This document shows, piece by piece, positions 1 to 64,000 of a stretch of 64,000 nt of DNA; position 1 is the stretch's first letter, and every line of letters begins with the position of its first letter. A model generated the notes under the pieces. It was not told the DNA's origin and ran no database searches. It was given only the letters and a program-made list of their open reading frames with translations. A program made the position numbers and the translations under genes. Source of the DNA: Panorpa germanica (taxonomy: Eukaryota; Arthropoda; Insecta; Mecoptera; Panorpidae); NCBI GenBank assembly GCA_963678705.1, contig OY783215.1, positions 15,295,740-15,359,739 on the forward strand, written 5' to 3'.

Positions 1-1158
1 ATTTATGGAGTATAAATCCATATCTTCCGTATGCCATGCGAAGCTGGTTTTCCACGTGCCAAAATACAGGTACGAGTTATTAACACCGTCGATAGTATAA
101 TTGTAATCGCGAACTACGTAATCTAATATGCTGCCTAATTTGTTAATGTTCCATGAGGAACAATGGTCATCCGTTAGACTCGCCAAAACATCAATTCCAT
201 AAATGGGAGCACCTTTTACAACATCCTCCCAATATATTCGCTCCAAGTCTTCGTGATCATGATGTAGAGGAGTTTCTTTTTCGCACGATGTCGCATTTTT
301 CTTAAATTGCTTTAAACTCGTTTGTCTTTTTTTCGCATTTAATTGTTCATATATGCCTTTTGTTTGCGTCTCAGTAACATGCTGAGCAACTGGTGTTTTA
401 ATTTTGAACGTCGTTTCGTCCATTCTATACCCATTTTTACTTGGAACCCATTCCGGAGGCGGAATAATTTTGCAAATTCCTGCTTCATGCGCACCAACGG
501 ATTCAATGTACGAAATGAATTTGTTAAAATCTTGGAATTCGTCCCAAGTCGGTCGGAAAACTTTTATGGAGGGTACTGGGTATCCAAACTTAAAGTCTTC
601 TCCATCTTCTTCGTGTGTTGTTTGACACTTCGGCACTGTGTAACCGTCCTCTGTTGTTAGACACTCCGGCACTGTGTAACCGTCCTCTGTTGTTAGACAC
701 TCCGGCACTGTGTAACCGTCCTCTGTTGTTAGACACTCCGGCACTGTGTAACCGTCCTCTGTTGTTAGACACTCCGGCACTGTGTAACCGTCCTCTGTTG
801 TTAGACACTCCGGCACTGTGTAACCGTCCTCTGTTGTTAGATACTCCGGCACTGTGTGAACGTCATCTGTTCTTAGATACTCAGGCACTGTGTAAACGTC
901 ATTTCTTCTTAGATAATCCGGCAGTGTGTGAACGTCATTTGTGGTTTCAAACAAGGGTCTGTTCTGATCACCCACTATTACGTCCCGTGGTCCTTCACCA
1001 CTGGTCAATGTTTTGTTCTTTATAGCTTTCCGGTACCGCTCTATGTATCCATTAATGCTAACTGCAATTTATTTAATTATATTAATATTACTTATCTTAT
1101 ATATTAGGTATTATATGTTCGTTAAATACAATAATTAAAACTTACCCGTAGAATTCAT
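1..1158 (-). CDS. KDM4-like JmjN/JmjC histone lysine demethylase, copy 1 (3' part outside window)
   Basis: Two exons on the minus strand. Exon 1 is 1146-1181, with ATG at 1158-1156 and a GTAAGT donor. Exon 2 runs from 1061 to the window edge, with acceptor TTGCAG. The frame is open with no break. The protein would start MNSTVSINGYIERYRKAIKN, then nine 12-residue repeats, the JmjN domain and the start of JmjC. It is cut just after the HTED iron-ligand motif, so the second iron histidine and most zinc ligands lie outside the window. Family role: iron(II)/2-oxoglutarate-dependent removal of methyl groups from histone H3 lysines in the nucleus. Differences from copy 2 include two extra repeats, Gly to Glu in LFGTT, Glu to Asp in the acidic stretch before JmjN, and Met to Ile in GSMLDY. 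None disrupts the fold obviously. Family assignment is strong. Whether this copy is expressed cannot be seen. Confidence 0.85.
613..936 (-). repeat. 36-bp coding minisatellite, 9 units (copy 1)
   Basis: Nine in-frame 36-bp units encode 12-residue repeats such as DGYTVPECLTTE. The gene-5' units are diverged (DVHTLPDYLRRN, DVYTVPEYLRTD). Six central units are identical or nearly so. The total is 324 bp, 72 bp longer than in the other two copies, an exact two-unit expansion. Confidence 0.95.
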
Positions 1159-1181
1159 TATGCCTTTTTGAAGTAGACTAT

Positions 1182-2451
1182 CTGGAAAATAAAAAAAATA
1201 AATTATTCTATAAAGTCACATGTGATTACATCTTATAATTAACTAAACCGCTTCTTGAGTTTATAATTGTTAATTTATAAATAATATATTGAATATTATT
1301 TTTATAGCGTTTCATTTTCCTATATTAAAACAGCAATATGAGACACTAATTGGTTAATTTATATATTATGTAATAATATTTAAGTTATCTAATACTTGTA
1401 TAGTCTATTATCATTTGAATATTTGCTTAAATGTTCTGATTAGCTATGTAAATTAAAGTTCGATTTAACACCGAATTAATTTTGATTGACACCACTACTC
1501 CGAATCGACTGTTTACTTCACCGACGTCTTGTGAAATAATGTGTTATGCGAACAGTAGTATTCATTATTTTGTAATGATTACTATCTTTACTTATTATAA
1601 ATTATTGTATTTAATATAATTAATTTTATTTCTTTATTTTAACACTAAAACTGAGTGAGTAGGAATGGAGCTTAAATCATTGTTCACAAACTCAATTAAA
1701 ATTCAAAAACTTTACTTGTCAAGAATAATAAAAAAAATTCTTATAAAAATTTAAATTATATATCTGTCTCGTTTGTTCTAATACAACGTATACATAAGTA
1801 CATCTCTTTCCTACTACCACCAAAATGGCGCCGCCAGACACCTGTTTGTAGGTATAAATATTTAACAATAAAATAATATGAGAAATTATTAGAAGTTATT
1901 CATTTAAGAATCAAATGAAATAAGTCGTTCCAAAAATATACAAATATGACAACTAATTAGGGACAGGAGTTTGTGAATGTATAAAATAATCTACCCTCAA
2001 AAGATATTCGTTTACAATCTAATCGGACAGAAGAAATATTATAATAAATTTTTCTCTACAATATCATATTTTACAGTTTATAATAAACAAAAATGAAATA
2101 CACCTTCGCGGAGTCTCATGTACATGCATAAAACATAAGAAACATAGACCAAACACATGAAATATTGGAAATCGTTTTGAGTCAAATCATAATATAATGC
2201 GTTATGACATATATTTCAATATATAAATTTGTTTGAGAATTTAATAAATATGTTTTTTGTTTAGTTAATATATTACAAAAAATGTCATAGCAATTAGTAT
2301 TCACAAAAACATCACAGAATCGTTTCTAATATAATTCAAAATATCACATTTAAGACAAAATTTCACATTTTCAAATATAAAATAATAGAAAATCTAATGT
2401 TTCTTTATTTTGTATAATTTTACAAAATTCTATAATAATATCATATTAGAC
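1182..2451 (-). other. Putative first intron of KDM4-like copy 1
   Basis: AT-rich sequence between the 36-nt coding exon 1 and a possible upstream donor at 2456/2455. No ORF or known repeat is visible. It is almost base-for-base the same as 53162-54430 and 62801-64000, so it is part of the amplified unit. Confidence 0.5.
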
Positions 2452-2455
2452 TTAC

Positions 2456-2715
2456 CTTTCGCAAATTATATATGTTATAATTTTTAATTTCCTTGGAATT
2501 CGCCAATCACTATTTAGCACATGCACAAATTTTATAAAAATAGTTAAATGTATATAACTTACAATGTGATCAGTATGAATTACAAAGTATAAATGATTTT
2601 TATCGTAGAAATTGTTTGCTCTTATAGTCAACGCTCTGTAGTTCAATATGAAAACTAAACAAATATAAGGGCGGGTCCAACTACCATGCAAATTTAGTGG
2701 AAACGCCCTTTGCAT
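2456..2715 (-). promoter_or_regulatory. Candidate 5' UTR exon and promoter of KDM4-like copy 1
   Basis: Read on the minus strand, the segment ends in GCGAAAG followed by a strong GTAAGT donor at 2455-2450. Upstream it holds GC-richer patches (GGGCGTTTCC, GGACCCGCCC) and an octamer-like ATTTGCAT. If spliced to exon 1, the joined frame has an in-frame TAA shortly before ATG 1158, which supports that ATG as the start. The segment is conserved in copy 2 (54435-54694). A second GTAAGT lies at about 2560. Transcription start and exon limits are inferred. Confidence 0.35.
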
Positions 2716-3172
2716 ATGAACCTGGCGGATGCTTTATTAATTTAAAAAGCTGATGATTTACTTAATATAATATAAAATCTATCATTTGTGTTCTCAGTAA
2801 AGATATCATTTAAAGTAGTTTAATGTAATTAAAAATTTGGTAATTTACTTAGATCCATTGTGTTTTTAAAAATTTGAAAGTTTATTTTGGTTATTGTAGA
2901 ATTATTATTTTATATTACAAGTTCAAGGAGCAACTAAATTAAAAATATTGTAATCCTAATCTTTTGCATTGTTAATTTATAAATTATTTTCACTTTTCGT
3001 TGCAAACCAAATACATTCGCATAATCGAATAAAAAAGGAAGCTAATATTCGCGAATTCGAATATTCGTTACATCCCTAGTATATAGTATAAATATTTTAT
3101 TATTAGGTTTTTGTTTTTTCAAGTAAAAATATATTATAAATATAGTATTATTGTAATAATATGAACGTATTA

Positions 3173-3424
3173 CCCAGTAAACAATTTAGCAAAGTGTCCT
3201 GTTTTGTGACGTTTCTATCACTATTGCATTTCAATTATAGTTCGCATCAACTTTATCATCATGTGTATTTCCACAGGTTGAGTAATTTCGCCATTGTAGA
3301 TGATGAAATAGACAATTCATATGAACGGTTCTGAGAAACTGGACTGTAAATGAACTCTTTTATCACAGAGAAATCATACACATCTTCAATATGATGGTAA
3401 AGTGACTCCAAAATGTTTACTGGA
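3173..3424 (+). mobile_element. MITE, CCCAGTAAACA family, 2-bp target duplication (TA)
   Basis: About 252 bp with terminal inverted repeats CCCAGTAAACAATTT and AAAATGTTTACTGG(A). It is flanked by TA on both sides. The same insertion is present at 55150-55401 in the copy 2 flank, so it entered before the gene cluster was amplified. Confidence 0.85.
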
Positions 3425-4370
3425 TATCACCCACATTATATAATCCATATTTATGAAAGGTGAGAAAGAAACAGTCCAAAGGGCACGCGAGAGATGCTAC
3501 CTCATTAAGCGCCTTGATTAGAAAGACGCCAAAGAGCAAAATCGGGTTGCCCACTGTAATTTAAATTCACGGTAAACTATTCTTAGGTAAATGTGCACAT
3601 CTACTTTAAATTTATCTCAGACCGTCCATGGATGCCAAAATGCAGACTGATGACTTGCAATTACACTTCACTTATATTTAATTAAATTAAAATCAACTTT
3701 TAGGTATTTACGGAGGTACAGGGCCTATTCATAAATGATGAAAATGTCGCGAAATGTGAAGGACCGATAAAATAGTTAAAATACATGCTGTCTCAAAATT
3801 TGAGTGACCTAGGGTGTATAGTTTTCTTTATGTGATTAAAAAGAGCCCATTTTCATATGCATCAGAACTTTTAGCTCAATTTTATCACAACAATTTTACC
3901 TTTTAACTATGAAAAAATGGTGTCACGGTTTTCAAAAACTACGTGTATCACCAAATCATATGTAAATTTACAACATTGCCAAATTTATTATTACTTTTTC
4001 AAAATATTTAATTTAAATTTAAATTGAATTAATATAAATTTGATATTAATTATAAGTAATTTTTTAATTATGAAACTATTATATGCATAAAAATATAATT
4101 TGAACATGCCAAAAGCCATTTTATTGGGAATTTCATTTTCGAAGGTACGCAGGTCCCATATTTACCCCGTTCTCATATATTTTCAATTTCGTAATTCGTA
4201 TTACAGGTAGATAAACTTTTTGCATTAACGGGGCGGTCTGTACTTTCTAAACAAATAAAAATACCATACGAATATCTCACCCATACCCATATCTCAATAA
4301 AACATTTTACAAATATTTTACAAATATTTTCGCCAATTTGAGGCGGCAATATTTGTTTAAGGGATTAGTC

Positions 4371-4660
4371 CACTCTGACATTTTTATAAAAACAAATTCC
4401 TTTCTGCTTAAATTTATTACTTTATTACTTTTACTAGCTTTTATTACCTATTCTAAAAGATAACCTTGAATAGTACTTATGAATATTTCCTGGATTTTCG
4501 TTTTATTAAATATTCCAAAATTGACAGATATGTATTACCCTTTTAATTATTAGAGAAAAAAATGACTATTTTGAATCGTTAATATCCTCTATAATATTGC
4601 GAATAAAAATACTTGAATATTTGAAGTTTTTGTGCAGTTTTATATACATTCAGTATGGTT
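4371..4660 (+). repeat. End of duplicated flank plus degenerate TIR-element remnant
   Basis: Homology between the copy 1 and copy 2 flanks stops near 4475 (56487 in copy 2). The next ~150 bp resembles the right end of the 640-bp AATGGG family (TTAATTATTAGAGA and GAATATTTGAAG stretches), but diverged. A 25-bp match to about 59004-59030 marks the far side of an insertion in copy 2. Confidence 0.4.
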
Positions 4661-6993: not shown

Positions 6994-7247
6994 ACTTTAA
7001 ATGTCGTTTCTTCAAATTTCAGGTATGATTTAAGTTAAACAATGTTATTATTAAAATATGTATGTAAATTAACAAAATAATCTTCAGATTTCAGAAGCAA
7101 CACATGAGTTTAATTGAAGTATACAATTCCTAATAAAACTGAAGACATAATAGAACTAGAGTCTTATATGTATTTAAGTTTTATCTAACATAACAAAAAT
7201 TACTTGTTACGTTGTTTTTTTATAAAAGTTATTAATATACTCTACTT

Positions 7248-7497
7248 CCCAGTAAACAATTTGATGAAGTGCCCTATTTAGTGACGTTTCTATCACTGTT
7301 TCACTTCAATTATAGTTCGCATCAACGCATTCATTTGTATTCTGACAGGTGGAGTAATTTCGCCATTTGTAGCCGATAAAGTAGACATTTTATATAAAAA
7401 AATGTGAGAAACTGAACTATAAATGAACTCTTTAATGACAAAAAATCATGACGCATCTTCAATATGATGTCAAAGTGACTCCAAAATGTTTACTGGG
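7248..7497 (+). mobile_element. MITE, CCCAGTAAACA family, TSD TT
   Basis: 250 bp starting CCCAGTAAACAATTTG and ending CAAAATGTTTACTGGG, flanked by TT at 7246-7247 and 7498-7499. No coding capacity. Confidence 0.9.
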
Positions 7498-7527
7498 TTC
7501 TGACAACACTTTTGATCGTTATCAATA

Positions 7528-7781
7528 CCCAGTAAACAATTTGGTGAAGTGCCCTATTTAGTGACGTTTCTATCACTATTTCACTTCAATTATAATTCGC
7601 ATCAACTTTATCTTCATTTGTATTTCGACAGGTGGAGTGGTTCCGTCATCTGTAGCCGATAAAGTAGACATTTTATATGAAAAAATGTGAGAAACAGAAC
7701 TATAAATGAACTCTTTTATGACAAAAAAATCATGACGCATCTTCAATATGATGTCAAAGTGACTCCAAAATGTTTACTGGG
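7528..7781 (+). mobile_element. MITE, CCCAGTAAACA family, TSD TA
   Basis: 254 bp, same orientation as the copy just upstream and only 30 bp from it. Flanked by TA at 7526-7527 and 7782-7783. The different flanking dinucleotides indicate two independent insertions, not a local duplication. Confidence 0.9.
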
Positions 7782-7783
7782 TA

Positions 7784-9266
7784 TCGTTTAGTTATCAGTA
7801 ATGGTAGATAATCTAACTACCGTGATAGTAGAGATAGTATAAAGACAGTCTACATGGTTCATCTGTACATCTGGTGTTGCCTCACATTCTATGTTCACAC
7901 ATAATGAACTACACCAGTTAAAATTCCTTGACTTGACTTACATAATAAAATACATAAACATGACTTAATTAATTCATTTTACTTAATATTCCAATCATAT
8001 TTAACGATATTTTTGTTAAAAAGCAACTTAACAACTTAAATAGATGTGCTTGCTCCCCCCGTTGCCCCGTTTCCACCCTGCTTAATGTTAATTCAACCCT
8101 TGTTGCTTGTTGCCCATCGACTCGATTTGCGTTTCGACTTTATTTTTACAATTTATATAACATAATTACTAAAATGTAATTAAGGTAATTCTGAACGTTT
8201 TTCTCGCAACTAACGCGAGGGAGATCATTTAAACGTTAAATGAACAGAAACACCTAACTGCATTAATGTTCTTCTTTGTGTTACTGGTATATTACATTAA
8301 GTTTATTTCACGGTGGTCATTTATTTATTTTTTGGGGTAATTTAATTAAATATATAGCAACTAGTAATAAACCTAGCGGGATGTCAATAAGGTTCGACAA
8401 AGTATTGGAAATCTGCTTCTTCCGTACCCCTATCCCCTAACTACGCCTCTGTTCACCACCCACTTTAATATTAAAGAAAGGGAGACCTGTAGTCCGACAG
8501 AAAAAGTACAAGTTAAAAAAAAAAAGTCTGAAGTTATATTTTTAACCAATGTAAACGAACACAACTTAAAAATGAGTAGAAGAATCGAATGTTGATTTGA
8601 AATGAAAATAAGTTGAATACCTATTACAAAATTTAAACTTAGTCAATAAAATTCTTTCTATAAATGTGATGTATATGAAAAAGTTTCAAAAGGTCGGGCT
8701 TAGCTGAGATTTTCGTTCAATCAGTCATAATCGTAACAACGGTGATTTCGTTATCCCATTTCACTTCGTTCAATAAAATAGACCATCAAATTTTATAATT
8801 TTATATATAATGTAAAATAATATTTTTCAAACTTTCTGTTAAAAATAAATCACTAAGGTATAACTACTTTCTCTTTAACTGGATTGTAAATTTAAACCCT
8901 ATTTGTAACCAGACAGTCAAATGCTTTTGTTGGTGAAATTGCAAAATTAAATAAAACCCAAAGGGTGCCCGGTGGCCCGAATTTTCCAGCCCAAAAATTT
9001 AAAAACTACATACCGTCACTAAACAAATAACTTACAAACTTTCGCAAAGGATTAGCATAAAGTGTTATATATTTAAATGGACGATGCTATTATGATTTCG
9101 AAACGACCACCAGACACAAGACCAATAAAAGTTAAGTACTAACAGTACTAAGTACTTAAATAGCTATTTAAATGATAAGAAATTATTAACTTTAAGCGAA
9201 CACTTTATTGGGTTTACCCAAGGACACTTGCATAAATAGCTCCAGCTGCGGGAACACGGCTAGCAC
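7784..9266. other. Non-coding stretch, nothing recognised
   Basis: AT-rich sequence with short C-rich patches (near 8055-8090 and 8425-8460). No ORF, RNA gene or known repeat was identified. Confidence 0.6.
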
Positions 9267-12225: not shown

Positions 12226-12814
12226 AAAGTATCCTAAACTTAAAAATTAACCGAAAAAAAAATAGTTTTGGTTTTTTTTTCAATTCTTAGTTTTATAGTA
12301 TTAGTTCACATAGTAATTTTTACTGTGTCCTAACAGTGTATTAACAAACAGTTTGTAAAACCCGATTACCACATTGAATATACCAAAACAAGATTAAATA
12401 AAATGATGAAAGGAGTGGAAAATTATTGTGGAAACTACAAAGAACAAATTTTCATCGGAGTGAATTTTAAAAAGAGGGTTAAAAAATGATTGTCGTCCTC
12501 TAAGGAATGCCCAAGTACCCGATGGGCGATGAGCGATGAGGCATCGGGGTGATGGTCCCGACGCCCAGTGTGTCAGTTAGAAACAATAAATTGTAGATTT
12601 CGTATTCATAGTGGAAACGAAAACGCGTTATAAGACAATAGACCTCTGCATTCAAATCCAATCGAGAACGGGGTGTCATCATTGGAACGCCGACAACCGC
12701 CTGCCCGCCTCTCCGCCTCTCCGCGCGCCCGCAACAACGATCTAAAGAAAGAACTCGAACGGAATAAAAACAAGTAAAAAGTAAAAGAAATTTCTATTTT
12801 GCATTATAATATAT
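12226..12814. other. Non-coding stretch, nothing recognised
   Basis: Includes a GC-rich patch near 12690-12740 (CCGCCTCTCCGCCTCTCCGC) and a short frame at 12500-12682 (-) without similarity. Confidence 0.6.
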
Positions 12815-15440
12815 ACTAGCTTTTACCCCCGTCGCAAGCGACGTGTCTTTTGTGTGTGGCTTGAACTTCATGTAAAAATTTAAATTTTAGTAACGTTTAC
12901 CCCGTTGCAAAGCGAAGTCTTTTTGCCGTGTATGATTTGAAACCATTAAAATAATTCGTAATTACATTTCATATTTAATTCTATGTTAAAATTGAAATAA
13001 TAAATAAACTCGCGCACATATACATGACATATAAATTGACTAAAAAAAATTATTTTTTTAACAAAATAAAAAATATTTTCAATTTATGCGTTATTTGACC
13101 AACTTTTTTTTAAAATTTGGGATTTTTTTTTCGATTCGTAAATAAGTTACCCAGATTAGCCTATATACAAAATTTCAACTTTCTAGCACAATTTTTACTC
13201 TCGGAAAATACTGCCCCCGTGCCCCCAAATAAAATTTTGAAATTTTGAATTTTTTTTTATAAATAATATACTTAATTATTCTAGAATCCAGAATATGAAC
13301 TTTCTCCAAAGTTCCCTTCCGGGCCCCCGAATTTCTTCAACCCCCCCTTTTTCAATTTTTGAATTTCTAATTTTTGAGAAATGTCAGCATTGATTACCTT
13401 AATACAGATGCAAAATTTCAACTTTCTATCTCTTACCAACTCAAAGTAATACAGCAAAAAAGGGCTCACTTTTTTTCCAGATTTTTCAAAATAACGGGTT
13501 TCCAGGAAATTCAGGGAAAAATCCGGGGACGCCAAAAGTCTTAGAATTTTTTTCTCTACGAAATAGGCAATTTTCAAAAACTTCCCTGGAGCCGTTTTCG
13601 AGATGCCATACAAAATTCGAACCAAACATATAAACATATAAGAATATAAGAATATAAGAATACAAATATACACCTGGGACATTATAATATAGGATGAAAT
13701 ATATATTACGAGATTTTAGGGCAATTTAGGGGTCAATTTTTTTATTGAAATATTGATTATTATATTTACGTGAATATCCTAAAAATGAGCAATATAATCC
13801 ATTTAACGTTTGAATTTTATTTTAGTGCGTAATATTTGGTTGTTTGCCTAGTAGTTGATAATGGCAATAACTTTAGTTTTATATCACGACATTTCATGAA
13901 AACTTGATGAATTGCTACAACAGTTGCTATTGCTGTGACGTTTAATTCTGTATCTCTTTTGCACTTCTCTTGCTTTATCGCGATGAGAAAGGTTGTCAAA
14001 TAATAGTGTGGAAGAAGGTGAGGAAGGAATGACGTCAAGTGATCTGTCACTTTTTTTAAATTTTTACCTCTTTAATTATTAAAGAGAGCGTAACTCTCTT
14101 TTTCCATATTTAATTTAAATTCTGTTTAATTTAAATTCTATTTAATAATTCGTAATTTCATTTCACATTTTCGTTCCATTTTTAAATAGAAATATTTAAT
14201 TCGTTCTATATTATTTTACATATAACAAATAATTTTTCATATAAATTGACTAAAAAAATTGTTTTTTTTCTTTTATTAATAATATACTTAATTATTCTAG
14301 AATCCAGAAAATGAATTTTCTCCAAAGTTCCCTACCGGGCCCCCCTTCTAATTTTTGAGAAATGTCAGCATTGAATACCTTAATACACATGCAAAATTTC
14401 AACTTTCTATCTTATAGGAATTAAAAGTAATACAGCAAAAAAGGGATCAATTTTTTTCCAGTTTTTCCAAAATTACGGGTTTCCAGGAAATTCAGGGAAA
14501 AATCCGGGGACGCCAAAAGTCTTATAATTTTTTTCTCTACGAAATAGGAAATTTTTAAAAACTTCCCTGGAGCCGTTTTCGAGATGCCATACAAAATTCG
14601 AACCAAACATATAAGGATATAAGAATATAAATATACACCTGGGACATTATAATATACTTGAGTTTACCCCTGTCGCAATGCGACATCTTTTTGGCGTGTA
14701 TCATTTAAATCCAATAAAATAATTCGTAATTAAATTTCATATTTAACTGTTCTATTTTTAAATTGAAATAATAAATAAACTCGCGCACATATAAATTGAC
14801 TAAAAAAATATTATTTTTTTATCAAAATAAAAAATATTTTCAATTTATTCGTTATTTGACCAACTTTTTTTCAAAATTTGGGATTTTTTTTTTCGATTCG
14901 TAAATAAGTTACCAAGGTTAGCCTATATACAAAATTTCAACTTTCTAGCACAATTTTTACTCTTGGAAAATACTGCCCCCGTGCCCCCCAATAAAATTTT
15001 GAAATTTTGAATTTTTTTTTATTAATAATATACTTAATTATTTTACAATCCAGAATATGAACTTTCTCCAAAGTTCCCTACCGGGCCCCCGAATTTCTTC
15101 AACCCCCCCTTTTTCTATTTTTGAAATTCTAATTTTTGAGAAATGTCAGCATTAAATAGCTTAATACACATGCAAAATTTCAACTTTCTATCTTTTACGA
15201 CTTGAAAGTAATACAGCAAAAAAGGGATCACTTTTTTTCCAGTTTTTCCAAAATTACGGGTTTCCAGGAAATTCAGGGAAAAATCTGGGGACGCCAAAAG
15301 TCTTAGAATTTTTATCTCTACGAAATAGGAAATTTTTAAAAACTTCCCTGGAGCCGTTTTCGCGCTGCCATACAAAATTCAGTACCAAACATATAAGAAT
15401 ATAAGAATATAAGAATATAAGAATATAAACATATAAGAAT
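12815..15440. repeat. 2626-bp tandem unit, first copy
   Basis: Begins CTAGCTTTTACCCCCGTCGC. It holds three diverged members of one family: 12815-13697, about 14245-14653 and about 14655-15440. Members start in ACTAG/CTTGAG + TTTACCCC + GTCGCAA and end in ACATATAAGAATATAAG with GGGACATTATAATATA. 13698-14240 is unrelated sequence, also seen diverged near 58617-59110. Minus-strand frames of 60-133 codons recur in each member but look like repeat-borne chance ORFs. Confidence 0.9.
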
Positions 15441-18066
15441 ACTAGCTTTTACCCCCGTCGCAAGCGACGTGTCTTTTGTGTGTGGCTTGAACTTCATGTA
15501 AAAATTTAAATTTTAGTAACGTTTACCCCGTTGCAAAGCGAAGTCTTTTTGCCGTGTATGATTTGAAACCATTAAAATAATTCGTAATTACATTTCATAT
15601 TTAATTCTATGTTAAAATTGAAATAATAAATAAACTCGCGCACATATACATGACATATAAATTGACTAAAAAAAATTATTTTTTTAACAAAATAAAAAAT
15701 ATTTTCAATTTATGCGTTATTTGACCAACTTTTTTTTAAAATTTGGGATTTTTTTTTCGATTCGTAAATAAGTTACCCAGATTAGCCTATATACAAAATT
15801 TCAACTTTCTAGCACAATTTTTACTCTCGGAAAATACTGCCCCCGTGCCCCCAAATAAAATTTTGAAATATTGAATTTTTTTTTATAAATAATATACTTA
15901 ATTATTCTAGAATCCAGAATATGAACTTTCTCCAAAGTTCCCTTCCGGGCCCCCGAATTTCTTCAACCCCCCCTTTTTCAATTTTTGAATTTCTAATTTT
16001 TGAGAAATGTCAGCATTGATTACCTTAATACAGATGCAAAATTTCAACTTTCTATCTCTTACCAACTCAAAGTAATACAGCAAAAAAGGGCTCACTTTTT
16101 TTCCAGATTTTTCAAAATAACGGGTTTCCAGGAAATTCAGGGAAAAATCCGGGGACGCCAAAAGTCTTAGAATTTTTTTCTCTACGAAATAGGCAATTTT
16201 CAAAAACTTCCCTGGAGCCGTTTTCGAGATGCCATACAAAATTCGAACCAAACATATAAACATATAAGAATATAAGAATATAAGAATACAAATATACACC
16301 TGGGACATTATAATATAGGATGAAATATATATTACGAGATTTTAGGGCAATTTAGGGGTCAATTTTTTTATTGAAATATTGATTATTATATTTACGTGAA
16401 TATCCTAAAAATGAGCAATATAATCCATTTAACGTTTGAATTTTATTTTAGTGCGTAATATTTGGTTGTTTGCCTAGTAGTTGATAATGGCAATAACTTT
16501 AGTTTTATATCACGACATTTCATGAAAACTTGATGAATTGCTACAACAGTTGCTATTGCTGTGACGTTTAATTCTGTATCTCTTTTGCACTTCTCTTGCT
16601 TTATCGCGATGAGAAAGGTTGTCAAATAATAGTGTGGAAGAAGGTGAGGAAGGAATGACGTCAAGTGATCTGTCACTTTTTTTAAATTTTTACCTCTTTA
16701 ATTATTAAAGAGAGCGTAACTCTCTTTTTCCATATTTAATTTAAATTCTGTTTAATTTAAATTCTATTTAATAATTCGTAATTTCATTTCACATTTTCGT
16801 TCCATTTTTAAATAGAAATATTTAATTCGTTCTATATTATTTTACATATAACAAATAATTTTTCATATAAATTGACTAAAAAAATTGTTTTTTTTCTTTT
16901 ATTAATAATATACTTAATTATTCTAGAATCCAGAAAATGAATTTTCTCCAAAGTTCCCTACCGGGCCCCCCTTCTAATTTTTGAGAAATGTCAGCATTGA
17001 ATACCTTAATACACATGCAAAATTTCAACTTTCTATCTTATAGGAATTAAAAGTAATACAGCAAAAAAGGGATCAATTTTTTTCCAGTTTTTCCAAAATT
17101 ACGGGTTTCCAGGAAATTCAGGGAAAAATCCGGGGACGCCAAAAGTCTTATAATTTTTTTCTCTACGAAATAGGAAATTTTTAAAAACTTCCCTGGAGCC
17201 GTTTTCGAGATGCCATACAAAATTCGAACCAAACATATAAGGATATAAGAATATAAATATACACCTGGGACATTATAATATACTTGAGTTTACCCCTGTC
17301 GCAATGCGACATCTTTTTGGCGTGTATCATTTAAATCCAATAAAATAATTCGTAATTAAATTTCATATTTAACTGTTCTATTTTTAAATTGAAATAATAA
17401 ATAAACTCGCGCACATATAAATTGACTAAAAAAATATTATTTTTTTATCAAAATAAAAAATATTTTCAATTTATTCGTTATTTGACCAACTTTTTTTCAA
17501 AATTTGGGATTTTTTTTTTCGATTCGTAAATAAGTTACCAAGGTTAGCCTATATACAAAATTTCAACTTTCTAGCACAATTTTTACTCTTGGAAAATACT
17601 GCCCCCGTGCCCCCCAATAAAATTTTGAAATTTTGAATTTTTTTTTATTAATAATATACTTAATTATTTTACAATCCAGAATATGAACTTTCTCCAAAGT
17701 TCCCTACCGGGCCCCCGAATTTCTTCAACCCCCCCTTTTTCTATTTTTGAAATTCTAATTTTTGAGAAATGTCAGCATTAAATAGCTTAATACACATGCA
17801 AAATTTCAACTTTCTATCTTTTACGACTTGAAAGTAATACAGCAAAAAAGGGATCACTTTTTTTCCAGTTTTTCCAAAATTACGGGTTTCCAGGAAATTC
17901 AGGGAAAAATCTGGGGACGCCAAAAGTCTTAGAATTTTTATCTCTACGAAATAGGAAATTTTTAAAAACTTCCCTGGAGCCGTTTTCGCGCTGCCATACA
18001 AAATTCAGTACCAAACATATAAGAATATAAGAATATAAGAATATAAGAATATAAACATATAAGAAT
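15441..18066. repeat. 2626-bp tandem unit, second copy
   Basis: Colinear with 12815-15440 at a constant offset of 2626 bp and no indel that I can find. One substitution was spotted (T at 13244, A at 15870). The junction is ATATAAGAAT|ACTAGC. This is either a very recent tandem duplication or an assembly duplication. Confidence 0.9.
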
Positions 18067-18068
18067 AT

Positions 18069-20216: not shown

Positions 20217-20241
20217 GTCTTTTCATTTTTTCCTATTATTA

Positions 20242-20481: not shown

Positions 20482-20647
20482 TATTGTTTACAGAGATTTT
20501 AACCGTCAGTTGTTCAAACCAACTGCAGTTCGCATTAACTTTTTCATCGCTTGGATTCTGGCAGGTGATGTGGTTTCGATAATTATTACCTAAGCTAGAG
20601 ATATTTAATATGAACGACTGAACTGTGAGCAAACTCTGTACTGGGTA

Positions 20648-48804: not shown

Positions 48805-48807
48805 TTA

Positions 48808-50248: not shown

Positions 50249-50931
50249 TTACCCCCGTCTTTTTGGTGTGTATGATTTGAATTTTTTCAATAATTTGACC
50301 AACTTTTTTTCAAAATTTGGAATATTTTTTTCGATTTGTAAATTAACTACTAAAGTTAGCCCATATATAAAATTACAACTTTCCGCCACGTGCTTCCAAA
50401 TGAAATTATCGAATTTTTAATTTTTTTTTTCATAATTTAATTCATTATTAAGTAATTCAAAAGAGTTTTCTCCAAAGTTTCCTACCGGGTCTCTTTTTCT
50501 ATTTTTCAATTTCTAATTTTTAAAAAATATTAGCACTGAACACCGTAATACACATGCCAAATTTTAACTTTCTATCTTTTTCGAATTAAAACACGGGGGC
50601 AATTTTTGCAGAGAGTATAAATTGTGCTAGAAAGTTGAAATTTTGTATATAGGCTAACCATAGTAATTTATTTACGAATCGAAGAATAAAATCCTAAATT
50701 TTGAAAAAAAGTTGGCCAAAAAATACATAAATTGAAAATATTTTTTATTTTGTTAAAAAGAATATATTTTTTTAGTCAGTTTATATGAAAAGTTATTTTT
50801 GTTTTTATATGTAAAATTTATATAATAGAACGAGTTAAATATTTCAATTTTAAAATGGAATATAAATTTGATTTGAAATTAAAACCACACACAAAAGACA
50901 GTCATAGTTTGCGACGGGGGTAAACTCTAGT
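50249..50931. repeat. Long foldback repeat 3' of KDM4-like copy 2
   Basis: Two members of the TTTACCCCCGTC family face each other: plus-oriented 50249-50580 and minus-oriented about 50588-50931, ending GGGGGTAAACTCTAGT. A transcript through it could form a hairpin of about 300 bp. It lies about 670 bp beyond the gene's stop codon. Confidence 0.8.
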
Positions 50932-51522
50932 TATACTGTAACACTATAGTACTCGGGTAAGTACTCAAGTAATATTCAATTTTTATAGAAAAACTATGTC
51001 ATCTGAATCGTATCTGATCATGTAAAAGAGCCTTTACATTGACTTGGTCAAACATTCCAAAAACATTGCAATATTAAAGTGCTACCTGCATTGATTGCTC
51101 CCACAACAAATGAACTTGTTTTCTTTTTCTTTCATTACCTGATTAACACATATTGAAAATGTTATGAAAAAAATCTGTTTCAAAAAATATTAAAAATTTT
51201 CTTAATTTTGCTGTAAAAGAATTTATGCCTTACAAACCATCGAATTGAATCTGTTTATACGTTTTTAGTTAAAATAAAATTGGTGATATAATTTGAATGC
51301 TTGTTATTTAAATTTTCACATTTTTACATTTTTACAGTTAAATAAGTAGCAATATTTCAATAATAATATTCGTCATAGAAATGTTCTTAAATAATAATAG
51401 GTATATAAGTATAAGTACTTAAATATTTAAATTATTACTAAAACTAAATACATAAAAAAATATCGCTTCTCTCTATTTACATATTTACATTATATTTCAT
51501 TTTTTACACTTTTAAAAATAGT

Positions 51523-51528
51523 TTTAAT
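51523..51528 (-). terminator. Possible poly(A) signal of KDM4-like copy 2
   Basis: ATTAAA on the minus strand about 70 bp past the stop. The same motif sits at 61159-61164 after copy 3. No AATAAA is nearer. Confidence 0.35.
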
Positions 51529-51596
51529 AGGTCCAATTATAAAAGTCTGTGGAACTGTGTTTTGAGGATTCCTCATAGTTGATTTAAACTGATTAA

Positions 51597-53138
51597 CTAA
51601 TCAGATTCAAATGGTTCTTCGGGATGAGGTTCATCAACATAAAGCCCCATTTTCCAGTCTTCATACTTCTCAGGTTGGAATCTCTTAACAAAGGTGTCCA
51701 TATCTATGGTCAACATACCATTTGGACATGTGCAATGCTGCACTTTCTTACCATACTCAATCCATCGTTCCGTTGCAAAATTTGAGGATTCTGCGCAATT
51801 GAATCCGTGATTAAATCCGGCATGATAGCCTAATGGAAACGTAATAATGATTTCCCCGGCTTCTTGGGTGATTACGTCAAACGGTATTTTATTTTCTTTT
51901 AAAACTTCCGGGCTAATTAACATTGTTTTGTGGCGTAGATAACCGGGGCAGAGTTTGCTTTCTGGAATATGTTTCCTAACTAAGTTTTCAAGTCTTCTAG
52001 CATGTTTAGGAGGAATGGCGTACCAAGTCTTCGGTGCGCCAAAATGCACATAATTTATGGAGTATAAGTCCATATCTTCCGTATGCCATGCGAAGCTGGT
52101 TTTCCACGTGCCAAAATACAGGTACGAGTTATTAACACCGTCGATGGTATAATTGTAATCGCGAACTACGTAATCTAACATGCTGCCTAATTTGTTAATG
52201 TTCCATGAGGAACAATGGTCATCCGTTAGACTCGCCAAAACATCAATTCCATAAATGGGAGCACCTTTTACAACATCCTCCCAATATATTCGCTCCAAGT
52301 CTTCGTGATCATGATGTAGAGGAGTTTCTTTTTCGCACGATGTCGCATTTTTCTTAAATTGCTTTAAACTCGTTTGTCTTTTTTTCGCATTTAATTGTTC
52401 ATATATGCCTTTTGTTTGCGTCTCAGTAACATGCTGAGCAACTGGTGTTTTAATTTTGAACGTCGTTTCGTCCATTCTATACCCATTTTTACTTGGAACC
52501 CATTCCGGAGGCGGAATAATTTTGCAAATTCCTGCTTCATGCGCACCAACGGATTCAATGTACGAAATGAATTTGTTAAAATCTTGGAATTCGTCCCAAG
52601 TCGGTCGGAAAACTTTTATGGAGGGTACTGGGTATCCAAACTTAAAGTCTTCTCCTTCTTCTTCGTGTGTTGTTTGACACTTCGGCACTGTGTAACCGTC
52701 CTCTGTTGTTAGACACTCCGGCACTGTGTAACCGTCCTCTGTTGTTAGACACTCCGGCACTGTGTAACCGTCCTCTGTTGTTAGACACTCCGGCACTGTG
52801 TAACCGTCCTCTGTTGTTAGATACTCCGGCACTGTGTGAACGTCATCTGTTCTTAGATACTCAGGCACTGTGTAAACGTCATTTCTTCTTAGATAATCCG
52901 GCAGTGTGTGAACGTCATTTGTGGTTCCAAACAAGGGTCTGTTCTGATCACCCACTATTACGTCCCGTGGTCCTTCACCACTGGTCAATGTTTTGTTCTT
53001 TATAGCTTTCCGGTACCGCTCTATGTATCCATTAATGCTAACTGCAATTTATTTAATTATATTAATATTACTTATCTTATATATTAGGTATTATATGTTC
53101 GTTAAATACAATAATTAAAACTTACCCGTAGAATTCAT
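51597..53138 (-). CDS. KDM4-like JmjN/JmjC histone lysine demethylase, copy 2 (complete)
   Basis: Exon 1 is 53126-53161 (ATG at 53138); exon 2 is 51597-53041; the intron has GTAAGT and TTGCAG borders. About 485 residues, close to insect KDM4 proteins (about 500) but with JmjN starting only at about residue 146, behind a repeat tract (residues 47-130). JmjC holds all expected ligands: iron by His324, Glu326 and His411; 2-oxoglutarate by Lys342 with Tyr268 and Asn334; structural zinc by Cys369, His375, Cys441 and Cys443. Motifs include FAWHTEDMDLYSINY and GYHAGFNHGFNCAES. The family removes methyl groups from H3K9/H3K36 using iron and 2-oxoglutarate. There are no PHD or Tudor domains, as usual in insects. 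The whole catalytic region sits in one exon, hinting at an ancient retrocopy (inference). An active enzyme is plausible. The function of the repeats is unknown. Confidence 0.92.
52665..52916 (-). repeat. 36-bp coding minisatellite, 7 units (copy 2)
   Basis: Seven in-frame units. The last four read DGYTVPECLTTE or a close variant (final DGYTVPKCQTTH). Total 252 bp. Confidence 0.95.
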
Positions 53139-53161
53139 TATGCCTTTTTGAAGTAGACTAT

Positions 53162-54430
53162 CTGGAAAATAAAAAAAATAAATTATTCTATAAAGTCACA
53201 TGTGATTACATCTTATAATTAACTAAACCGCTTCTTGAGTTTATAATTGTTAATTTATAAAAAATATATTGAATATTATTTTTATAGCGTTTCATTTTCC
53301 TATATTAAAACAGCAATATGAGACACTAATTGGTTAATTTATATATTATGTAATAATATTTAAGTTATCTAATACTTGTATAGTCTATTATCATTTGAAT
53401 ATTTGCTTAAATGTTCTGATTAGCTATGTAAATTAAAGTTCGATTTAACACCGAATTAATTTTGATTGACACCACTACTCCGAATCGACTGTTTACTTCA
53501 CCGACGTCTTGTGAAATCATGTGTTATGCGACAGTAGTATACATTATTTTGTAATGATTACTATCTTTACTTATTATAAATTATTGTATTTAATATAATT
53601 AATTTTATTTCTCTATTTTAACACTAAAACTGAGTGAGTAGGAATGGAGCTTAAATCATTGTTCACAAACTCAATTAAAATACAAAAACTTTACTAGTCA
53701 AAAATAATAAAAAAAATTCCTATAAAAATTTAAATTATATATCTGTCTCGTTTGTTCTAATACAACGTATACATAAGTACATCTCTTTCCTACTACCACC
53801 AAAATGGCGCCGCCAGACACCTGTTTGTAGGTATAAATATTTAACAATAAAATAATATGAGAAATTATTAGAAGTTATTCATTTAAGAATCAAATGAAAT
53901 AAGTCGTTCCAAAAATATACAAATATGACAACTAATTAGGGACAGGAGTTTGTGAATGTATAAAATAATCTACCCTCAAAAGATATTCGTTTACAATCTA
54001 ATCGGACAGAAGAAATATTATAATAAATTTTTCTCTACAATATCATATTTTACAGTTTATAATAAACAAAAATGAAATACACCTTCGCGGAGTCTCATGT
54101 ACATGCATAAAACATAAGAAACATAGACTAAACACATGAAATATTGGAAATCGTTTTGAGTCAAATCATAATATAATGCGTTATGACATATATTTCAATA
54201 TATAAATTTGTTTGAGAATTTAATAAATATGTTTTTTGTTTAGTTAATATATTACAAAAAATGTCATAGCAATTAGTATTCACAAAAACATCACAGAATC
54301 GTTGCTAAAATAATTCAAAATATCACATTTAAGACAAAATTTCACATTTTCAAATATAAAATAATAGAAAATCTAATGTTTCTTTATTTTGTATAATTTT
54401 ACAAAATTCTATAATAATATCATATTAGAC
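53162..54430 (-). other. Putative first intron of KDM4-like copy 2
   Basis: Near-identical to 1182-2451. Copies 2 and 3 share differences from copy 1 (for example GAAATCATGTGTTATGCGAC against GAAATAATG with an added A), showing they are the closer pair. Confidence 0.5.
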
Positions 54431-54434
54431 TTAC

Positions 54435-54694
54435 CTTTCGCAAATTATATATGTTATAATTTTTAATTTCCTTGGAATTCGCCAATCACTATTTAGCACA
54501 TGCACAAATTTTATAAAAATAGTTAAATGTATATAACTTACAAAGTGATCAGTATGGATTACAAAGTATAAATGATTTTTATCGTAAAAATTGTTTGCTC
54601 TTATAGTCAACGCTCTGTAGTTCAATATGAAAACTAAACAAATATAAGGGCGGGTCCAAATACCATGCAAATTTAGTGGAAACGCCCACTGCAT
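54435..54694 (-). promoter_or_regulatory. Candidate 5' UTR exon and promoter of KDM4-like copy 2
   Basis: Counterpart of 2456-2715 with the same GCGAAAG|GTAAGT donor and the conserved GGACCCGCCC and ATTTGCAT patches. A few substitutions are present. Limits are inferred. Confidence 0.35.
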
Positions 54695-55149
54695 ATGAAC
54701 CTTGATGATGCTTTATTAATTTAAAAAGCTGATGATTTACTTAATATAATATAAAATCTATCATTTGTGTTCTCAGTAAAGATATCATTTAAAGTAGTTT
54801 AATGTAATTAAAAATTTGGTAATTTACTTAGCTCCATGGTGTTTTTAAAAATTTGAAAGTTTATTTTGGTTATTATAGAATTATTATTTTATATTACAAG
54901 TTCAAGTACCACCTAATTAAAAATATTGTAATCCTAATCTTTTGCATTGTTAATTTAAAAATTATTTTCACTTTTCGTTGCCAACCAAATACATTCGCAT
55001 AATCGAATAAAAAAGAAGCTAATATTCGCGAATTCGAATATTCGTTACATCCCTAGTATATAGTATAAATATTTTATTATTAGGCTTTTGTTTTTTCAAG
55101 TAAAAATATATTATAAATATAGTATTATTGTAATAATATGACCGTTGTA

Positions 55150-55401
55150 CCCAGTAAACAATTTGGCAAAGTGTCCTGTTTTGTGACGTTTCTATCACTA
55201 TTGCATTTCAATTATAGTTCGCATCAACTTTATCATCATGTGTATTTCCACAGGTTGAGTAATTTCGCCATTGTAGATTATGAAATAGACAATTCATATG
55301 AACGGTTCTGAGAAACTGGACTGTAAATGAACTCTTTTATCACAGAGAAATCATACACATCTTCAATATGATGGTAAAGTGACTCCAAAATGTTTACTGG
55401 A
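55150..55401 (+). mobile_element. MITE, CCCAGTAAACA family, orthologous insertion in copy 2 flank
   Basis: Same insertion point and sequence as 3173-3424, flanked by TA. Inherited with the duplication. Confidence 0.85.
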
Positions 55402-56492
55402 TATCACCCACATTATATAATCCATATTTATGAAAGGTGAGAAAGAAACAGTCCAAAGGGCACGCGAGAGATGCTACCTCATTAAGCGCCTTGATTAGAA
55501 AGACGCCAAAGCGCAAAATCGGGTCGCCCACTGTAATTTAAATTCACGGTAGACTATTCTTAGGTAAATGTGCACATCTACTTTAAATTTATCTCAGACC
55601 GTCCATGGATGCCAAAATGCAGACTGATGACTTGCAATTACACTTCACTTATATTTAATTAAATTAAAATCAACTTTTAGGTATTTACGGAGGTACAGGG
55701 CCTATTCATAAATGATGAAAATGTCGCGAAATGTGAAGGACCGATAAAATAGTTAAAATACATGCTGTCTCAAAATTTGAGTGACCTAAGGTGTATAGTT
55801 TTCTTTATGTGATTAAAAAGAGCCCATTTTCATATGCATCAGAACTTTTAGCTCAATTTCATCACAACAATTTTACCTTTTAACTATGAAAAAATGGTGT
55901 CACGGTTTTCAAAAACTACGTGTATAAATATTTTTTTTTAAACTATTAGTCAAATCACCAAATCAAATGTAAATTTACAACATTGCCAAATTTATTATTA
56001 CTTTTTCAAAATATTTAATTTAAATTTAAATTGAATTAATATAAATTTGATATTAATTATAAGTAATTTTTTAATTATGAAACTATTATATGCATAAAAA
56101 TATAATTTGAACATGCCAAAAGCCATTTTATTGGGAATTTCATTTTCGAAGGTACGCAGGTCTCATATTTACCCCGTTCTCATATATTTTCAATTTCGTA
56201 ATTCGTATTACAGGTAGATAAACTTTTTGCATTAACGGGACGGTCTGTACTTTCTAAACAAATAAAAATACCATACGAATATCTCACCCATACCCATATC
56301 TCAATAAAACATTTTACAAATATTTTACAAATATTTTCGTCAATTTGAGGCGGCAATATTTGTTTAAGGGATTAGTCCACTCTGACATTTTTATAAAAAC
56401 AAATTTCTTTTGGCTTAAATTTATTACTTTATTACTTTTACTAGCTTTTATTACCTATACTAAAAGAACACCCCTGAATAGTACTTACAGTT

Positions 56493-59763: not shown

Positions 59764-60578
59764 ACTAGAGATTACCCCCTTCGCAAAGCGACGTCTTTTT
59801 AGTGTTTATGATTTGAATCCAACAAAGTCATTCGTAATTTCATTTCAAATTTTAATTCTATTTTCAAATTGATTTTTTTTAACTCATTCAATAATAAAAA
59901 AAATTTTCGTATAAATTGACTAAAAAAATATATTTTTTTTAATAATTTGACCAACTCTTTTTCAAAATTTGGAATATTTTTTTCGATTTGTAAATTAGGT
60001 ATTAAAGTTAGTACATATATAAAATTTCAACTTTCTGCCCCGTGCTTCCAAATAAAATTATTGAATTTTGAATATTTTTTTTTCATAATATATTCAAAAT
60101 TCAAAATTTGAGATTTCTCTAACATTTCCTATCGGGTCTCTTTTTCTATTTTTCAATTTCTAATTTTAAAAAAATATTAGCATTGAACACCGTAATACAC
60201 ATGCCAAATTTTAACTTTCTATCTTGTACGAATTAAAATACGGGGGCAATTTTTGTCGAGAGTATAAATTGTGCTCGAAAGTTGAAATTTTGTATATAGG
60301 CTAACCTTGGTAATTTATTTACGAATCGCAGAAAAAAATCCCAAATTTTGAAAAAAAGTTGGCCAAAAAACGCATAAATTGAAAATATTTAATATTTTGT
60401 TAAAAAGAATATATTTTTTTAGTCAGTTTATATGAAAAGTTATTTTTGTTTTTATATGTAAAATTTATATAATAGAACGAGTTAAATATTTCAATTTTAA
60501 AATGGAATATAAATTTGATTTGAAATTAAAACCACACACAAAAGACAGTCATAGTTTGCGACGGGGGTAAACTCTAGT
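59764..60578. repeat. Long foldback repeat 3' of KDM4-like copy 3
   Basis: Counterpart of 50249-50931 but with a more complete left arm: starts ACTAGAGATTACCCCCTTCG and ends GGGGGTAAACTCTAGT. 815 bp, ending about 655 bp beyond the copy 3 stop codon. Confidence 0.8.
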
Positions 60579-61232
60579 TATACTGTAATACTATAGTACT
60601 CAAGTAATATTCATAGAAAAACTATGTCATCTGAATCGTATCTGGTCATGTAAAACAGCCTTTACATTGACTTGGTCAGACATTCCAAAAACATTGCAAT
60701 ATTAAAGTGCTACCTGCATTGATTGCTCCCACAACAAATGAACTTGTTTTCTTTTTCTTTCATTACCTGATTAACACATATTGAAAATGTTATTTTTTAT
60801 TGAAAAAAATCTGTTTCAAAAAATATTAAAAATTTTCTTAATTTTGCTGTAAAAGAATTTATGCCTTACAAACCATCGAATTGAATCTGTTTATACGTTT
60901 TTAGTTAAAATAAAATTGGTGATATAATTTGAATGCTTGTTATTTACATTTTTTCATATTTACATTTTTACAGTTAAATAAGTAGCAATATTTCAATAAT
61001 AATATTCGTCATAGAAATGTTCTTAAATAATAATAGGTATATAAGTATAAGTACTTAAATATTTAAATTATTACTAAAACTAAATACATAAAAAAATATC
61101 GCTTCTCTCTATTTACATATTTACATTATATTTCATTTTTTACACTTTTAAAAATAGTTTTAATAGGTCCAATTATAAAAGTCTGTGGAACTGTGTTTTG
61201 AGGATTCCTCATAGTTGATTTAAACTGATTAA

Positions 61233-62777
61233 CTAATCAGATTCAAATGGTTCTTCGGGATGAGGTTCATCAACATAAAGCCCCATTTTCCAGTCTTCAT
61301 ACTTCTCAGGTTGGAATCTCTTAACAAAGGTGTCCATATCTATGGTCAACATACCATTTGGACATGTGCAATGCTGCACTTTCTTACCATACTCAATCCA
61401 TCGTTCCGTTGCAAAATTTGAGGATTCTGCGCAATTGAATCCGTGATTAAATCCGGCATGATAGCCTAATGGAAACGTAATAATGATTTCCCCGGCTTCT
61501 TGGGTGATTACGTCAAACGGTATTTTATTTTCTTTTAAAACTTCCGGGCTAATTAACATTGTTTTGTGGCGTAGATAACCGGGGCAGAGTTTGCTTTCTG
61601 GAATATGTTTCCTAACTAAGTTTTCAAGTCTTCTAGCATGTTTAGGAGGAATGGCGTACCAAGTCTTCGGTGCGCCAAAATGCACATAATTTATGGAGTA
61701 TAAATCCATATCTTCCGTATGCCATGCAAAGCTGGTTTTCCACGTGCCAAAATACAGGTACGAGTTATTAACACCGTCGATAGTATAATTGTAATCGCGA
61801 ACTACGTAATCTAACATGCTGCCTAATTTGTTAATGTTCCATGAGGAACAATGGTCATCCGTTAGACTCGCCAAAACATCAATTCCATAAATGGGAGCAC
61901 CTTTTACAACATCCTCCCAATATATTCGCTCCAAGTCTTCGTGATCATGATGTAGAGGAGTTTCTTTTTCGCACGATGTCGCATTTTTCTTAAATTGCTT
62001 TAAACTCGTTTGTCTTTTTTTCGCATTTAATTGTTCATATATGCCTTTTGTTTGCGTCTCAGTAACATGCTGAGCAACTGGTGTTTTAATTTTGAACGTC
62101 GTTTCGTCCATTCTATACCCATTTTTACTTGGAACCCATTCCGGAGGCGGAATAATTTTGCAAATTCCTGCTTCATGCGCACCAACGGATTCAATGTACG
62201 AAATGAATTTGTTAAAATCTTGGAATTCGTCCCAAGTCGGTCGGAAAACTTTTATGGAGGGTACTGGGTATCCAAACTTAAAGTCTTCTCCTTCTTCTTC
62301 GTGTGTTGTTTGACACTTCGGCACTGTGTAACCGTCCTCTGTTGTTAGACACTCCGGCACTGTGTAACCGTCCTCTGTTGTTAGACACTCCGGCACTGTG
62401 TAACCGTCCTCTGTTGTTAGACACTCCGGCACTGTGTAACCGTCCTCTGTTGTTAGATACTCCGGCACTGTGTGAACGTCATCTGTTCTTAGATGCTCAG
62501 GCACTGTGTAAACGTCATTTCTTCTTAGATAATCCGGCAGTGTGTGAACGTCATTTGTGGTTCCAAACAAGGGTCTGTTTTTCTGATCACCCACTATTAC
62601 GTCCCGTGGTCCTTCACCACTGGTCAATGTTTTGTTCTTTATAGCTTTCTTGAACTTCTCTATGTATTCTTCAATGCTAACTGCAATTTATTTAATTATA
62701 TTAATATTACTTATCTTATATATTAGGTATTATATGTTCGTTAAATACAATAATTAAAACTTACCCGTAGAATTCAT
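61233..62777 (-). CDS. KDM4-like JmjN/JmjC histone lysine demethylase, copy 3 (complete)
   Basis: Exon 1 is 62765-62800 (ATG at 62777); exon 2 is 61233-62680. About 486 residues. Identical to copy 2 through JmjN and JmjC, so all catalytic and zinc residues are kept. Differences lie in the N-terminus: residues 8-15 are EEYIEKFK instead of NGYIERYR, one Lys is inserted (GDQKNRP), and one repeat has PEHL instead of PEYL. The first difference is eight substitutions in 25 bp, far above the background between copies. The gene repeats copy 2 at a 9.64-kb spacing with about 1 kb of shared 3' flank, and its intron runs to the window end. Likely the same nuclear demethylase role if translated. Confidence 0.92.
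62301..62552 (-). repeat. 36-bp coding minisatellite, 7 units (copy 3)
   Basis: Same unit number and order as copy 2, with a single Tyr to His change in the second unit. Confidence 0.95.
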
Positions 62778-62800
62778 TATGCCTTTTTGAAGTAGACTAT

Positions 62801-64000
62801 CTGGAAAATAAAAAAAATAAATTATTCTATAAAGTCACATGTGATTACATCTTATAATTAACTAAACCGCTTCTTGAGTTTATAATTGTTAATTTATAAA
62901 AAATATATTGAATATTATTTTTATAGCGTTTCATTTTCCTATATTAAAACAGCAATATGAGACACTAATTGGTTAATTTATATATTATGTAATAATATTT
63001 AAGTTATCTAATACTTGTATAGTCTATTATCATTTGAATATTTGCTTAAATGTTCTGATTAGCTATGTAAATTAAAGTTCGATTTAACACCGAATTAATT
63101 TTGATTGACACCACTACTCCGAATCGACTGTTTACTTCACCGACGTCTTGTGAAATCATGTGTTATGCGACAGTAGTATACATTATTTTGTAATGATTAC
63201 TATCTTTACTTATTATAAATTATTGTATTTAATATAATTAATTTTATTTCTCTATTTTAACACTAAAACTGAGTGAGTAGGAATGCAGCTTAAATCATTG
63301 TTCACAAACTCAATTAAAATTCAAAAACTTTACTAGTCAAAAATAATAAAAAAAATTCCTATAAAAATTTAAATTATATATCTGTCTCGTTTGTTCTAAT
63401 ACAACGTATACATAAGTACATCTCTTTCCTACTACCACCAAAATGGCGCCGCCAGACACCTGTTTGTAGGTATAAATATTTAACAATAAAATAATATGAG
63501 AAATTATTAGAAGTTATTCATTTAAGAATCAAATGAAATAAGTCGTTCCAAAAATATACAAATATGACAACTAATTAGGGACAGGAGTTTGTGAATGTAT
63601 AAAATAATCTACCCTCAAAAGATATTCGTTTACAATCTAATCGGACAGAAGAAATATTATAATAAATTTTTCTCTACAATATCATATTTTACAGTTTATA
63701 ATAAACAAAAATGAAATACACCTTCGCGGAGTCTCATGTACATGCATAAAACATAAGAAACATAGACCAAACACATGAAATATTGGAAATCGTTTTGAGT
63801 CAAATCATAATATAATGCGTTATGACATATATTTCAATATATAAATTTGTTTGAGAATTTAATAAATATGTTTTTTGTTTAGTTAATATATTACAAAAAA
63901 TGTCATAGCAATTAGTATTCACAAAAACATCACAGAATCGTTGCTAAAATAATTCAAAATATCACATTTAAGACAAAATTTCACATTTTCAAATATAAAA
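62801..64000 (-). other. Putative first intron of KDM4-like copy 3, cut by window end
   Basis: Matches 53162-54360 almost exactly. The candidate 5' UTR exon would lie just beyond the window. Confidence 0.5.

Follow-up and report, generated by a model that had tools for sequence, protein, structure and literature searches.

An array of short KDM4-like genes on autosome 12 of Panorpa germanica, probably descended from a retrocopy

Gene models and extent of the array

The analyzed stretch, a window of 64,000 nucleotides from the Panorpa germanica assembly GCA_963678705.1 (contig OY783215.1), was placed by genome search on autosome 12 (C12) at positions 15295740–15359739. It contains three genes for KDM4-like histone demethylases, denoted c1, c2, and c3, each of which consists of a 13-bp first coding exon (ATGAATTCTACGG, from the ATG to a GTAAG donor), a short intron, and a single large exon 2, with exon 1 located 85 bp upstream of exon 2 in all three copies (Table 1). 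Two open frames lie at 51597–53048 and 61233–62687 on the minus strand, and the third is cut at the window start; followed in the whole genome, the c1 frame is open over 507 amino acids (aa) with zero stops. In each copy, a 36-bp tandem repeat encoding 12 residues lies between the N-terminus and JmjN. Pfam assigns both c2 and c3 a JmjC domain (1e-42) and a JmjN domain (1e-14), and in the Protein Data Bank c2 comes closest to human KDM4C (E 1e-121), followed by KDM4B/KDM4A, KDM4D, and RPH1, all ahead of KDM5. The order of JmjN before JmjC and the best match to KDM4 place the genes in the KDM4/JMJD2 family, whose members use Fe(II), 2-oxoglutarate (2OG), and oxygen to demethylate H3K9 and H3K36. 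In an alignment with KDM4C, the residues that we take to bind Fe(II) (HxE...H), 2OG, and Zn are kept in all 14 copies of the genomic array described below, wherever these are covered; c1 is covered to N198, and its remainder is represented by its protein identity to c2, which rounds to 100%. The gene models, Pfam assignments, and alignment thus bear out a preliminary description of the window, which had reported three KDM4-like copies with open frames and visible catalytic residues.

Table 1. Positions of the KDM4-like gene parts and duplicated segments in the window
Feature	Position	Strand	Remarks
c1 (copy B) exon 2, Kdm4-like	1..1061	-	C-terminus beyond the window start; match extends to C12:15295287
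c1 first coding exon	1146..1158	-	followed by GTAAG donor
c1 tandem repeat	616..936	-	36 bp (12 aa), linker before JmjN, 8.9 units
c2 (copy C) exon 2	51597..53041	-	includes stop; repeat linker, JmjN, JmjC
c2 first coding exon	53126..53138	-	
c2 tandem-repeat linker	52668..52916	-	12 aa, 6.9 units
c3 (copy D) exon 2	61233..62680	-	includes stop
c3 first coding exon	62765..62777	-	
c3 tandem-repeat linker	62304..62552	-	12 aa, 6.9 units
Segment shared with divergent copies	51060..53281	-	parts, including intron and flanks, common to the C4 and X copies
Block common to c1 and c2	1..4479	.	c2 side 52053–56487; 96.2% identical
Block common to c2 and c3	50282..54361	.	c3 side 59934–64000 (window end); 97.5% identical
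Spacer and c2 region recurring along C12	2558..60010	.	at 15370–15451 kb; ten of 14 sampled stretches, in order, 94–100%

A whole-genome JmjC search detected 14 matches of about 149 bits each on C12 between 15.245 and 15.600 Mb, all on the minus strand. The assembled array spans 356 kb and comprises copies A–N, of which the window contains three (c1 = B, c2 = C, c3 = D), so that the multicopy gene proposed from the window is represented more widely than was visible there. A genome-wide protein search found ten full-length C12 frames of 483/484 aa besides the 507-aa frame of c1, together with one of 531 aa, one of 473 aa that is 95% identical, and a broken one of 318 aa. In 11 of the 14 copies (A–F and H–L), the first exon, the two intron borders, and an uninterrupted exon 2 are all present.

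The remaining copies are atypical or degenerate. Copy G was at first taken to be 5'-truncated, an impression explained by a 5.7-kb insert with an A-rich end within its intron 1 (C12:15454020–15460050). The insert carries two long open frames, of 486 aa and 1248 aa, which read by eye as gag-like and reverse-transcriptase-like, and it resembles a retrotransposon of the type without long terminal repeats. Copy N is 5'-truncated, its first exon and border being absent by motif. Copy M (C12:15581550–15591900) is a pseudogene with one stop and one frameshift, in which the 36-bp coding repeat has expanded to about 8.7 kb (219 units by TRF in the 7.9 kb examined) with an intact repeat frame of 2913 open codons. 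This frame is not taken as evidence of coding, since the opposite strand is likewise open over 2560 aa.

Origin of the lineage and traces of selection

In the JmjN–JmjC segment, introns occupy five common positions in the multi-exon Kdm4 genes denoted X20 (on the X chromosome) and C17b (on chromosome 17), and C17c has four of these, its fetched stretch ending before the fifth. None of the five positions is occupied in the C12 genes, nor in C4, X9 (X at 9.16 Mb), and C10, divergent relatives with protein-search identities of 79%, 68%, and 61%, respectively; a fragment lies on C19. The loss of the parent's introns expected of a retrogene is therefore found in C12, as well as in X9, C4, and C10. 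Since C12 lacks up to five introns of the multi-exon X and C17 genes, a retrocopy is the probable starting point of the lineage. Apparently three multi-exon Kdm4-like loci occur at C17:9.030–9.057 Mb, which indicates that the intron-bearing Kdm4 has also been duplicated; the third (9.030–9.036 Mb) is known from the genome and protein searches and lies outside the intron comparison. The top JmjC match on X was set aside as KDM5-like by eye, based on a PHD-like exon and a different intron structure.

In a tree that took in five of the 14 C12 copies, C4, X9, and C12 form one clade (100/100), within which the five C12 copies cluster (100/99) with X9 as their sister (93/90). Since the members of this clade share intron and flank DNA, the later moves appear to have been DNA copies, and we infer one old retroposition at the base of the clade. 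X20 has the shortest branch outside the array, and this X gene may be the parent. A candidate reading of C4 as lacking the first exon was rejected, the exon having been located about 1 kb upstream without an ATG. At the linker position of the C12 12-aa repeat, X9 carries an unrelated acidic repeat, EEVGEEVGEEV.

The ratio of nonsynonymous to synonymous substitution rates (dN/dS) over 343 codons, estimated by three methods, is 0.19–0.30 for C12 versus X9 and C4, and 0.37–0.52 for C4 versus X9. Comparisons with C10 were saturated and were not used. Parsimony counts for the three lineages, from which 12 of the 343 codons with three-way differences were left out, assign 28.5 nonsynonymous and 38.5 synonymous changes to the C12 stem (ratio 0.18, p 2e-12), and the X9 branch has a ratio of 0.38 (p 8e-4). 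The sequences of the C12 stem thus indicate past purifying selection at a dN/dS of about 0.18. Within the array, since the copies are young and homogenized, intact frames alone prove little. The core of copies A–L, a count that excludes M and N, the stretch before JmjN, and the repeat, contains seven changes, two of them nonsynonymous and five synonymous (binomial p 0.013 for a nonsynonymous share set at 0.75, an assumption made once the data had been seen). Among six copies, the core coding sequence (CDS) is less variable than the 3' flank (4/1086 versus 24/981 sites, p 3e-5), and between c1 and c2, differences occur at 5/988 CDS positions versus 43/3292 across intron and 5' flank (p 0.038). 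The earlier suggestion that function retained during amplification reflects selection therefore stands for past constraint on the lineage; the intactness of the frames, to which it appealed, does not carry it, the copies being young and homogenized and M and N degenerate. The ratio near 1 that was named as an argument against constraint is not seen on the stem; within copies A–L the contrast is small.

Homogenization, copy number, and surroundings of the array

Between copies C and H, the core CDS is identical (0/1086) and the 5' flank and intron nearly so (1/583), but differences reach 10/122 in the coding bases preceding the repeat and 61/1288 in the 3' flank. Sequence similar to the distal 3' flank occurs as a repeat at 12.8–18 kb as well, which weakens the contrast in that flank. 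Because selection alone would leave synonymous differences, the pattern makes gene conversion within the array, or mosaic duplication, likely. Copies C and F show no difference across 3348 bp (100% identity).

Furthermore, the arrangement c1–spacer–c2–c3 recurs as E–spacer–F–G, so that about 57 kb of the window is repeated further along C12. Between 15367 and 15455 kb, 12 of 16 stretches are collinear with the window, though one matches only partly, and the four unmatched stretches (15385, 15389.5, 15405, and 15425 kb) are probable insertions. Three 301-base probes, beside A, beside L, and in the A–B spacer, match the c1-type spacer at 99–100%, while a fourth matches over 59 bases only. Either unequal exchange has produced a genuine segmental duplication here, or some of the recurrence comes from a haplotype that was retained. 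If E–F–G were alleles of c1–c2–c3 from an uncollapsed second haplotype, the true haploid number would be smaller, a possibility that we place somewhat on the unlikely side and that is compatible with the history proposed below. The ordered matches at 15370–15451 kb (Table 1), with their insertion differences, are what such a haplotype would leave, and an excerpt of the P. germanica genome note reports that curators took 14 haplotypic duplications out of this assembly. However, a single gene could not have c1, c2, and c3 all as its alleles, since the three are distinct in sequence and share one stretch. In the mosaic copy E, moreover, a gene that matches c2 without a difference over 1701 bases is joined to a right flank of c1 type (99.8%), and the c3-to-E step of 10.09 kb resembles the other steps of the array.

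The flanks were copied together with the genes, as the preliminary description had noted (Table 1), and the tandem period of c2 and c3, which it gave as 9.64 kb, measures 9636–9647 bp. Its placement of the genes among transposons found no counterpart in six-frame Pfam scans of 39.6 of the 64 kb, which detected no transposon domain and returned nothing beyond an LDLa match and a DUF2195 hit below threshold. The repeats seen in the window are short families. Repeat cover has a median of 0.23 in six 10-kb window chunks versus 0.11 at 17 other loci (p = 0.054), which is no more than suggestive of a window richer in repeats than those loci, and the window repeats recur in 14 of 17 other sampled genome stretches. 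A 254-bp interspersed repeat occurs at 7246–7797, 20240–20494, 22171–22432, 25525–25795, and 42049–42310 (copies 77–97% identical); it also adjoins c1 and c2 and is present in loci on two other chromosomes. A repeat family that also occurs beside the Kdm4 copies at 50.3–50.9 and 59.8–60.6 kb is tandemly duplicated at 12805–18067, with a length of 2.64 kb and 99.9% identity.

Two further features lie in the region between c1 and c2. A U5 spliceosomal RNA match (22850–22973, plus strand; 89.8 bits versus a gathering score of 40) is located within the duplicated spacer. Exons of an LDLa-transmembrane gene occupy 22600–24930 on the plus strand, with LDLa identified by Pfam and the CUB end and splice sites by eye. 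The transmembrane exon of this gene has four copies on C12 with identical protein sequence, of which the outermost, at C12:15614542, is perhaps the original. The decayed gene mentioned previously probably corresponds to these exons, its decay being putative.

Proposed history and comparison with known systems

We consider it probable that a retrocopied short KDM4 lineage spread as DNA and was amplified on autosome 12 into copies that mostly seem to be working. This history builds on what is read directly from the sequence, namely the gene models, the copy number in the assembly, the absence of introns, the clade, the conserved residues, and the past purifying selection. In an ancestor of P. 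germanica, a Kdm4 mRNA would have been reverse-transcribed into an intronless gene for a short KDM4 with JmjN and JmjC only, which would then have acquired the small 5' exon and the fast-changing repeat linker. Copying at the DNA level would have carried the gene between chromosomes 4, X, and 12, and amplification on autosome 12 together with its flanks, probably by unequal exchange, would have led to the 14 assembled copies, their likeness being upheld by recent duplication and gene conversion. Most copies may be expressed as Fe(II)/2-oxoglutarate demethylases of H3K9/H3K36 methylation, and their number may raise dosage. By analogy with the testis KDM4D, the site would be the germ line, probably the testis, where the array would supply more short KDM4 enzyme to a tissue that needs it.

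Several observations weigh against this history. An origin of C10 in common with C12 is neither shown nor rejected (p-AU 0.279 for a single intronless clade). More than one gene is a candidate parent, identity to the C12 genes being 63% for X20, 62% for C10, and 61% for C17b. The C4 branch has no significant constraint (0.74, p 0.32), and the C4 start codon is missing. In the array, the contrast between CDS and 3' flank arises in the distal flank, the first 500 flank bases varying at 4/500. Among six copies, 10/122 coding bases ahead of the repeat are variable, mostly with changed residues; the resulting N-termini, NGYIERYRK or of EEYIEK type, may derive from conversion by another copy or from loose constraint. 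Copies M and N are degenerate, with six nonsynonymous and two synonymous private changes (M compared only from its ICKI motif onward). Finally, the count of 14 may include uncollapsed haplotype.

Some of these points would also be expected if the array were a neutral passenger of a duplication-prone repeat region, expanded by unequal crossing-over, with its copies intact because they are young and homogenized and with enzyme function residing in the canonical multi-exon Kdm4. The identity of C and F, the amplification of other sequence such as the LDLa-transmembrane gene exon, the degenerate state of M and N, the small contrast within A–L, and the free variation before the repeat agree with this alternative. 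We nevertheless judge it unlikely, given that the constraint on the stem predates the amplification, that c1 and c2 differ less in the CDS than in the 5' flank and intron, and that both exons and their splice sites are kept in 11 of the 14 copies. Quite improbable, in our estimation, is a selected dosage device, in which a demethylase whose canonical gene is perhaps X-linked moved to autosomes and multiplied, with the 12-aa linker as an evolving targeting arm; it would perhaps serve X0 male germ cells by erasing H3K9/H3K36 methylation, or act in heterochromatin conflict. The initial proposal of an amplified demethylase on a W or Y chromosome has next to no chance of being right, since a multicopy JmjC gene in a repeat-containing region is a resemblance only, the location on autosome 12 of a male specimen with 20 autosomes plus X (excerpt of the P. 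germanica genome note) excludes W linkage, and P. cognata is described as XX/X0 without a Y in an excerpt of PMC10715201.

The history favored here, a retrocopied lineage amplified on an autosome, finds its closest parallels in mammalian KDM4D–F and primate ELOA3. The mammalian KDM4D–F genes are intronless and clustered. Excerpts of two reviews (PMC8581295, PMC6410163) describe KDM4D, KDM4E, and KDM4F (JMJD2D–F) as short proteins without PHD and Tudor domains and term KDM4E and KDM4F pseudogenes. The P. germanica proteins are likewise short KDM4 proteins without PHD/Tudor, whereas the array differs in its 14 near-identical assembled copies, its added 5' intron, and its repeat linker; we infer separate origins. 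Drosophila has two orthologues, Kdm4A and Kdm4B, in which we know of no array or repeat linker. As described in an excerpt of PMC3384587, both are without PHD/Tudor and demethylate H3K36me3, Kdm4B also acting on H3K9. Because the Drosophila KDM4 proteins, similar in this respect to those of P. germanica, are already short, the absence of PHD/Tudor says little in an insect. ELOA3 of primates, according to an excerpt of PMC10664989, is a tandem retrogene array for a transcription protein, with variable copy number and concerted evolution. The P. germanica array is also a tandem array of probable retrogenes, but it belongs to another protein family and is known from sequence, whereas the function of ELOA3 is demonstrated. 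The mammalian Y-linked JmjC genes KDM5D and UTY encode JmjC demethylases of other subfamilies, and the parallel once drawn with them fails since the P. germanica array is autosomal. The array resembles the mammalian KDM4D-type short demethylases and would be their independently arisen insect equivalent, with retrogene birth, X–autosome spread, and subsequent tandem amplification. Germ-line expression of the copies, if it occurs, would make it testable in a Y-less lineage with X0 males why chromatin enzymes yield amplified retrogenes.

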